Shown: positions 6,012 to 36,564 of the stretch, one piece after another
Layout of the letters: the number at the start of each line of letters is the position of its first letter
How positions within the stretch are numbered: the first letter of the stretch is position 1
DNA from: Alphaproteobacteria bacterium
Lineage (GTDB): Bacteria; Pseudomonadota; Alphaproteobacteria; Rhizobiales; Devosiaceae
Direction of reading: 5' to 3'
Assembly (NCBI GenBank): GCA_018818925.1
Contig: JAHJQZ010000042.1
Coordinates: 1-36,564, forward strand
DNA: 36,564 nucleotides
Translations under genes and position numbers: made by a program
The notes under the pieces: generated by a model
What the model saw: the letters and a program-made list of their open reading frames with translations, nothing else
What the model was told of the DNA's origin: nothing
Database searches by the model: none

Positions 6012-6150
6012 TCCTTCACCTCTCCCTTTGGGGGAGAGGTCGACGCGAAGCGGTGGGTGAGGGGGCCTTGCTGCGAACGCGACGTAGGCCCCCTCACCCG
6101 GACCTTCGCCTTGCTACGGTCCGACCTCTCCCCCAAGGGAGAGGTGAAAG
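6012..6150. repeat. composite palindromic repeat between the two IalB-like genes
   Basis: A nested inverted repeat fills most of the gap between the two IalB-family genes. The outer arms are each hairpins themselves (ACCTCTCCC...GGGAGAGGT at 6018-6040 and 6124-6145) and are also inverted copies of each other. An inner pair, GGGTGAGGGGGCCT at 6055-6068 and AGGCCCCCTCACCC at 6086-6099, forms a third stem. The same CCTCTCCC/GGGAGAGG hairpin recurs at 27048-27069 and in variant form at 14361-14580. This is an interspersed palindromic family of the kind common in rhizobial genomes. The rest of 5982-6308 shows nothing else. Confidence 0.85.
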
Positions 6151-14354: not shown

Positions 14355-14585
14355 CTTGCCTCCCCCTTGCGGGGAGGGCAATCGCACATGGCTGCGCAGC
14401 CCCCCTCATCCGGCGCTTCGCGCCACCTTCTCCCGCAAGGGGAGAAGGAAAGAATGCGGCAAGGTCTGCCGTAGTCCCCCTCTCCCTTGACGGGAGAGGG
14501 TGCCCGAAGGGCGGGTGAGGGTGGAGCCACACGGCACACCGTTGCCATATGCGATTGCCCTCCCCGTCAAAGGGGAGGGAAGCGT
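14355..14585. repeat. large composite palindromic element
   Basis: Most of the gap between the LysR and MarR genes is a nested inverted repeat. The outer arms at 14374-14391 and 14545-14562 are 18 bp with one mismatch (GAGGGCAATCGCACATGG against the complement of CCATATGCGATTGCCCTC). Outside and inside them lie hairpins of the form CTCCCCTTGCGGGGAG, CCTTCTCCCGCAAGGGGAGAAGG-like and CCCTCTCCCTTGACGGGAGAGGG-like. The GGGTGAGG motif shared with 6012-6150 shows common ancestry. No gene is visible in 14307-14614. Confidence 0.85.
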
Positions 14586-27047: not shown

Positions 27048-27069
27048 ACCTCTCCCTTGGGGGAGAGGT
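27048..27069. terminator. hairpin between convergent genes (repeat-family hairpin)
   Basis: ACCTCTCCC and GGGAGAGGT form a perfect 9-bp stem with a TTGG loop between the DUF4170 gene (+) and the glycosyltransferase gene (-). It is the same CCTCTCCC hairpin as in 6012-6150 and may serve as a two-way terminator, though neither side has a T-tract. Confidence 0.6.
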
Positions 27070-35964: not shown

Positions 35965-36049
35965 CGGAAAGGGTGGCGGACGCCGGCGCGGCGCGGGGAG
36001 GCAGGGGCAGGGAGACTGGTTTTTCGCCTGTTCTCCACCAGCGGGTCTT

Positions 36050-36068
36050 CCCGGGGCTTGACCCCGGG
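36050..36068. repeat. CCCGGGG...CCCCGGG palindrome at the start of the GIY-YIG gene
   Basis: CCCGGGG and CCCCGGG pair over 7 bp around CTTGA. The wording CCGGGGCTTGACCCCGGGAC is that of an interspersed element frequent in alphaproteobacteria. The only in-frame start of the following gene (TTG 36058) lies in the loop. Confidence 0.75.
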
Positions 36069-36504
36069 ACCCAATGGCGGCGCAATCCGGCACCTGGCCT
36101 TTTTTGTCTACATCCTCGCCAGTCGCCTGCACGGCACGCTCTATATCGGCGTTACCAACGACATGGCGCGCCGCGTCTGGGAGCATCGGCAGGGCAAGGG
36201 TTCGCTGTTTGCCAAACGGTACAAGGTTCACCGCCTTGTCCACATGGAAGCCTTCGATGATCCGCGGGACGCCATCCAGCGCGAGAAGACGCTCAAGGAC
36301 TGGCAGCGCGCCTGGAAGATCGCCCTCATTGAAAAGGACAACCCGGACTGGCGGGATCTCTACGAGGAACTCAACCAGCAAGCTCCCCAGTCGCACCCCC
36401 CTCGCCCCGGTCGTCCCGGATTTGATCCACTGCTGTCCGGTTTAGCCCGGGACCAGTTGCAGCGTCATTTGCCTTGGGTCCTTGGGGGGCGGATTTGGTG
36501 GTGA
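36058..36504 (+). CDS. GIY-YIG nuclease-domain protein with repeat-derived ends
   Basis: A small GIY-YIG nuclease-like protein (YhbQ/UPF0213 group). The core spans about residues 16-105: FVYILASRLHGTLYIGVTND (holding the GIY-YIG equivalents, with VYIL and YIG), then MARRVWEHRQGKG, IQREKTLKDWQRAWKIALIE and NPDWRDLYEEL, which normally ends such proteins. Here translation continues for about 40 residues of Pro/Arg/Gly-rich sequence. The only upstream in-frame start is a TTG inside a CCCGGGG palindrome, with no good SD. Either the gene starts in the repeat, or it has lost its true start and is decaying. Activity (DNA nicking) is inferred from family only. Confidence 0.75.
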   Translation: MTPGPNGGAIRHLAFFVYILASRLHGTLYIGVTNDMARRVWEHRQGKGSLFAKRYKVHRLVHMEAFDDPRDAIQREKTLKDWQRAWKIALIEKDNPDWRDLYEELNQQAPQSHPPRPGRPGFDPLLSGLARDQLQRHLPWVLGGRIWW

Positions 36505-36564
36505 TTTGAGTTCGTCGAGTGCGCGCCGATGCATGAGGTTGAGGCGGATGAGGCGGGCGAAGGC
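36442..36564 (-). CDS. 3' end of an unrecognised minus-strand gene (runs off window)
   Basis: On the minus strand a frame is open from the right window edge to a TAA at 36444-36442, giving 40 residues: AFARLIRLNLMHRRALDELK, then a Pro-rich SPPNPPPKDP and a short tail. The regular hydrophobic/Arg pattern looks like a real C-terminus, and the spacing fits a gene ending convergent with the GIY-YIG gene, overlapping its tail by 63 nt. I do not recognise the family. Confidence 0.45.
   Translation of the reverse strand, partial: AFARLIRLNLMHRRALDELKSPPNPPPKDPRQMTLQLVPG

Follow-up and report, generated by a model that had tools for sequence, protein, structure and literature searches.

The window, by which we mean the whole 36,564-nucleotide stretch of DNA that was analyzed, ends in an open frame with a GIY-YIG nuclease domain. 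The domain lies between a REP-like palindrome and half of a similar repeat, and the frame runs on into the end of an insertion sequence (IS) (Table 1). The sequence-only reading had recognized a GIY-YIG gene here, and this identification was confirmed by a match of the translated frame to the Pfam family PF01541 (E = 1.3e-13, 51.4 bits against a curated cut-off of 22.6). Both motif tyrosines are invariant across four GIY-YIG genes of the source genome. The same reading had placed the start codon in the loop of the palindrome, and the earliest in-frame ATG, GTG or TTG is indeed a TTG at 36058-36060, inside that loop; a CTG at 36094, close to the position occupied by ATG in relatives, is a possible alternative start. 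There is no in-frame ATG before the domain, the usual stop is absent, and the frame stays open beyond the usual GIY-YIG end, across the half palindrome at 36409-36427. Because of these two losses and the splitting of the 3′ REP by the IS, the window copy may no longer work; judged from its sequence, it looks like an old and damaged copy and a poor example of the nuclease-REP cassette described below.

Table 1. Features at the right-hand end of the window.
Feature	Position	Strand	Detail
Upstream REP-like palindrome	36044..36073	+	Stem, 8 bp; loop, CTTGA; tag, GGTC; tail, CCCA (CGTC REP of PMC3733652 as reference for the form)
GIY-YIG open frame	36058..36504	+	TTG start in palindrome loop; frame end within IS
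GIY-YIG catalytic domain (PF01541)	36100..36318	+	Profile search of genome, 52.8 bits
Downstream half-REP GGTCGTCCCGGATTTGATC	36409..36427	+	Left half of similar repeat, interrupted by IS
End of multi-copy IS	36428..36564	-	Matches elsewhere in genome; runs off contig, outside GIY-YIG unit

The sequence from 36428 onward recurs at 96-100% over 111-141 nt at four other places in the source genome (C35 twice, C41 and C151). At C105, C175 and C12 lies a second IS type, which has only its outer end in common with the window IS. A minus-strand frame at 36442-36564 looks like the C-terminus of a transposase and had no match in Pfam; a comparison of the IS end with plasmids likewise gave no match. 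The position of this boundary changes how the 3′ side of the gene is read. The coding frame had been said to run on into repeat sequence, which holds for the half palindrome, but what follows from 36428 is the IS end. Since the IS starts there, GCCCGGGACC and TTGGGTCC are IS sequence. The claim that GGACCCAA at 36067-36074 is inverted as TTGGGTCC at 36474-36481 therefore falls: we rejected the inverted pair, one half of which lies inside the IS, and we take the match to be chance. The two real repeat pieces in the window are in direct orientation, not inverted.

Four of the eight IS ends observed lie within a REP-like hairpin, joined after TTGACC or TTGATC; these are window 36428-36564 and, elsewhere in the source genome, C41:11836, C151:14254 and C105:29788. 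A fifth place (L206) is REP-like in appearance. The window IS may prefer REPs as targets.

The repeat directly before the GIY-YIG frame, GTCTTCCCGGGGCTTGACCCCGGGACCCA (36045-36073), forms a hairpin of 8 bp with the loop CTTGA, and its palindromic core, TCCCGGGG-CTTGA-CCCCGGGA, occupies 36049-36069. Its folding energy of -12 kcal/mol was equaled or bettered in 4 of 200 shuffles, and 8-bp stems are not rare in the window, with 90 stem/loop entries, in which one hairpin is often counted in several registers. The weight that we give to this palindrome comes from its homology to the repeats that bracket related genes. Stem (8), loop (5) and tail (CCCA) all fall within the form given for CGTC REPs in their 2013 description (PMC3733652), but both window pieces carry the tag GGTC in place of CGTC, TGTC or CCTC, and we therefore file the window copy as REP-like only. 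Copies of the window repeat at C41 and C105 of the source genome carry the tag CGTC. The repeat type is rare in that genome, with 8 loose matches versus 5 in a reversed control, and 3 of the 8 are cut by an IS end (C41, C105 and C151). An earlier pattern gave 35 loose matches versus 25 in the control, and abundance of the palindrome was rejected, as was a tandem array at the window feature; no Rfam RNA reached the gathering threshold there. Palindromes of the CCTCTCCC...GGGAGAGG kind also occur in the window, at 6018-6145, 14359-14579 and 27048-27069 and probably belong to a separate repeat family.

A profile search of the source genome returned five matches to PF01541, one of which (L005) is presumably uvrC. 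The remaining four genes adjoin four different repeat types. If the repeats belong with the nuclease, the other GIY-YIG genes of the genome should also be flanked, and two of the three are: L001 lies within the inverted bracket CGTCATTCCCG...GAATCCAG (flank score, 36.5) and L003 within CGTCATTGCGAG...GCAATCCAGAAGG (flank score, 26). L002 scored 12, which is background, and has CCTCATCCTGAGG-type repeats on its 3′ side. The gene and repeat count proposed along with the sequence-only reading yielded several nuclease genes, each beside a repeat of its own kind, and a window repeat that is scarcely more frequent than its control. NCBIfam held no family above cut-off for the GIY-YIG proteins searched.

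For the comparison with relatives, we took the best-scoring GIY-YIG hits from the family (136 genomes) and from 60 longer stretches; a GIY-YIG match, uvrC-like genes included, was present in 131 of the 136 genomes. For each locus, the 300 nt upstream of the gene were compared by alignment with the downstream 300 nt in reverse complement, and a score of at least 20 was taken as the threshold. Removal of near-identical domains reduced 93 loci to 85, and setting aside the window gene, which is too near the contig end, left 84 scored loci from 62 genomes, including three from the source genome. Inverted flanks reached the threshold at 58 of these 84 loci (median score, 27.5), compared to 4 of 422 shifted positions, none of 30 RidA genes and 4 of 215 neighbor ORFs. 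When either orientation was counted, the figures were 67 of 84 for GIY-YIG loci, 20 of 422 for shifted positions and 0 of 30 for RidA genes. A cross-locus control reached the threshold in 15.6% of 2000 comparisons, a high value that arises because loci share repeat families. The pattern extends beyond the family: from 80 named loci, mostly of Alphaproteobacteria, three were dropped as too short, and 59 of the other 77 scored at least 20, versus 20 of 409 shifted positions. Among records titled as another group, 10 of 16 reached 20, with Myxococcales, Desulfobulbus, Uhrbacteria, Nomurabacteria and, barely (20.0), Elusimicrobia represented; Chloroflexi, Bacteroidetes, Edwardsbacteria, Daviesbacteria and two Parcubacteria were below 20 in the inverted test. 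Bracketing by cognate REPs is thus commoner at the GIY-YIG genes of these relatives than at control genes.

The repeat type tracks the nuclease lineage. Between genomes, the median flank score was 12 for nucleases of less than 30% identity, 18 at 50-60% and 40.5 at 70-80%, a rise that at high identity is due in part to plain synteny; the Mantel rho between flank and nuclease similarity was 0.60, with 0 of 500 permutations as high. The class C REP, CCTCATGGTGAGGTGCG, was present in at least 10 copies in all eight genomes with the closest nuclease (12-157 copies) versus 15 of 128 others, at a nuclease cut (>110 bits) chosen after the data had been seen; the next genome below that cut, G018, had zero copies. 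With a wider nuclease cut, 11 of 19 versus 12 of 117 genomes had at least 10 copies (Fisher, 1e-5), such p-values being overstated because the genomes are related. Some loci in this wider group are flanked by other repeats (CCTTCGA...CTCAGGATGAGG) that lie outside the CCTCATGGTGAGGTGCG pattern. The class A REP, CGTCACCCTCGGGCTTGACCCGAGGG, had a median of 41 copies in 16 holders of the nuclease (15 of them among the matches listed, with G038 added from the collected loci) versus 2 in 59 other genomes of the genus, 14 of which nevertheless had at least 15 copies. Orphan class C repeats occur as well: G048 has 177 copies and G074 has 114, the cognate nuclease was detected in neither genome, and we rejected a strict rule that REPs are found only where the gene is.

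The limits of the unit could be seen in class A. Among the matches listed, a cassette from G030 was found at at least 18 other places in at least 14 genomes; the left-hand ends of these matches fall at query positions 305-343 (median, 331) and the right-hand ends at 674-720 (median, 705), and the outer tags of the query are CGTC at 331 and GACG at 697. From tag to tag the class A unit measures about 370 nt, and the stop codon of its gene adjoins the right-hand hairpin. In an alignment of nine class A cassettes, conservation runs from the CGTC tag and fades shortly past GACG and a short GGTGG, the right-hand REP being damaged in L084 and L049. Class B, represented by L088, differs in that each bracket consists of two REPs in inverted orientation, together about 108 nt long, and so resembles a REPIN.

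Flanks of closely related copies were compared by blastn, which may miss diverged flanks. None of 13 class A pairs with at least 80% identity shared flanks (L033 has one usable flank). Over all 39 between-genome pairs at this level of identity, synteny extended to both sides in 16, to one side in 7 and to neither in 16, and many copies have therefore been inherited in place. Sites with and without a cassette were also found, as the sequence-only reading had proposed to check. Between two genes that we take to be topA and rnr, G084 carries a class B cassette, and G044 and G062 carry a nuclease of another class together with another REP pair (by eye, the gene of G062 appears frameshifted). In G076 and G077 there is no cassette, and the site is instead occupied by other sequence that includes a single CCCTCGGG-type palindrome. 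The G030 cassette lies between genes that are presumably queA and tgt, and by eye it was not seen in that gap in the 10 relatives, of 11 tried, that yielded both of its sides; the smallest gap was 35 nt. As for the window gene itself, 29 relatives were compared at the matching AsnC gene, and it was not found within 1.5 kb in any of them; L308, one of the 29, is cut off on the informative side. We noticed no target-site duplication by eye at the compared cassette sites; some elements make none. Like an insertion sequence, the class A relatives are discrete units that end in inverted repeats and occupy different sites; this does not hold for the window copy.

Our preferred reading, to which we assign a probability of about two in three, is that the window carries an ageing example of a compact cassette in which a GIY-YIG nuclease gene stands between two REPs. 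Each nuclease lineage would have a REP of its own, in most cases of the CGTC kind, and in several lineages the cassette would move as a unit. More than 100 relatives with a similar arrangement suggest that enzyme and repeats make up one tiny mobile unit, and comparison of their sequences shows bracketing, pairing of repeat and nuclease, edges at or near the tags and sites with and without the cassette. Gene and repeats would then be one system, and the whole unit appears to relocate in at least class A. The guess of a small RAYT-like mobile unit, made from the window alone, is well supported by these relatives; the 3′ details on which it had partly relied belong to the IS. As for a mechanism, the enzyme may recognize the REP hairpin in single-stranded DNA, as RAYTs do, a mode suggested by the tag-plus-hairpin form. 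It would nick the DNA beside the tag, and the cassette or a REP pair would then be pasted elsewhere through repair or replication by the host. Scattered REP pairs, and presumably lone REPs, would be non-autonomous offspring of the cassette. GIY-YIG enzymes are not known to join strands, which counts against this reading. A broader proposal, on which we would place slightly less than an even bet, is that GIY-YIG nucleases are the missing mobilizing enzymes of CGTC REPs and that the unit of about 370 nt, with one gene and two hairpins, spreads itself, is among the smallest that carry a gene and occurs in several phyla.

The most serious alternative, which we nonetheless consider unlikely, is that the protein is a non-mobile, site-specific single-strand nuclease with REPs as its targets, serving gene control, DNA uptake or genome stability, and that the REPs nearby are self-regulatory. 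A 2025 study in Nature Communications reportedly describes such enzymes, the Ssn GIY-YIG single-strand nucleases with their own NTS repeats, in Neisseria and many other bacteria; the likeness extends to a small GIY-YIG nuclease with a cognate repeat. The pairs that are syntenic on both sides and the repeats that persist without the gene fit this alternative. It is opposed by units whose edges lie near the tags at no fewer than 18 places beyond the query site, by the lack of shared flanks in every close class A pair and by the presence of different cassettes, or none, at one site. Unit edges, unit-free sites and the swapping of cassettes at a site are not known to feature in the Ssn study, which probably covers the pairing of nuclease and repeat. 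If it does, the pairing is already known and the evidence for a cassette is the part that may be new.

That the gene has simply been invaded by generic genome repeats, with nuclease and repeat unlinked, is very improbable. REPs are generally common between genes, several kinds occur in the source genome, and L002 lacks brackets, but such brackets are mostly missing from neighbor ORFs, shifted positions and RidA genes, and flank similarity follows nuclease identity. Moreover, flanks of paralogues within a genome are no more alike than those of equally distant genes in different genomes (medians of 13 vs. 13.5 at 30-40% identity and 18 vs. 18 at 50-60%). Where a gene has a paralogue, its flank was closer to that of the nearest homologue in another genome in 31 of 38 cases, with the reverse in 6 and one tie. 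The window gene and L001 are among the six exceptions and match each other because both share the IS end. We give equally little credence to a homing endonuclease gene whose spread proceeds through repair of double-strand breaks at one fixed target: GIY-YIG domains do occur in homing enzymes, and L001 and L003 gave weak, below-cut-off NCBIfam matches to a group I intron endonuclease, but one class occupies many sites with unlike flanks, among which no common target was noticed, and the units carry their own terminal repeats.

Under the preferred reading of a mobile REP-nuclease-REP cassette, we regard the system as a possible GIY-YIG counterpart of RAYT/REPIN for CGTC REPs. Like RAYT/REPIN (PMC3116915, PMC2817692), the system pairs a DNA-processing enzyme with palindromic repeats of its own, which bracket the gene, and includes scattered repeat pairs. 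The two differ in the enzyme, which is a GIY-YIG nuclease here and a tyrosine transposase of the IS200 type in RAYTs. The window protein is accordingly not a RAYT, since Pfam assigned it to GIY-YIG above the cut-off and to no transposase, but it may act in a RAYT-like manner all the same.

CGTC REPs, as described by Di Nocera et al. 2013 (PMC3733652), have a stem of 8-9, a loop of 4-5 and a CCA tail, form mostly head-to-head dimers and occur mostly in Alphaproteobacteria, where they are abundant. The elements found here resemble them in these respects, and CGTC is the tag in most relatives, unlike the GGTC of the window pieces. The 2013 paper describes CGTC elements as seemingly without a dedicated transposase, with no RAYT or IS200 transposase gene flanked by them, and leaves their means of spread an open question, whereas here they flank a GIY-YIG gene. 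A cognate nuclease beside CGTC REPs provides a testable enzyme and a minimal mobile element for study, and the target of a small GIY-YIG protein becomes predictable from its own flanks. A link between GIY-YIG nucleases and REPs was not found among the titles and abstract openings listed by searches of a literature collection that covers some of the journals. The two solved relatives found by sequence, the UPF0213 proteins 1ZG2 and 1YWL, are entered as hypothetical, with no function in their names.

Two further observations concern individual copies. Decaying GIY-YIG genes with in-frame stops were seen at L085, G025:C1:2249215 and G060:C1:3950021. At L019, two near-identical GIY-YIG genes lie about 900 nt apart (G002:C6:81844 and 82725), and one of them is bracketed by CGTCACCCTCGGGCTTGACCCGAGGG.
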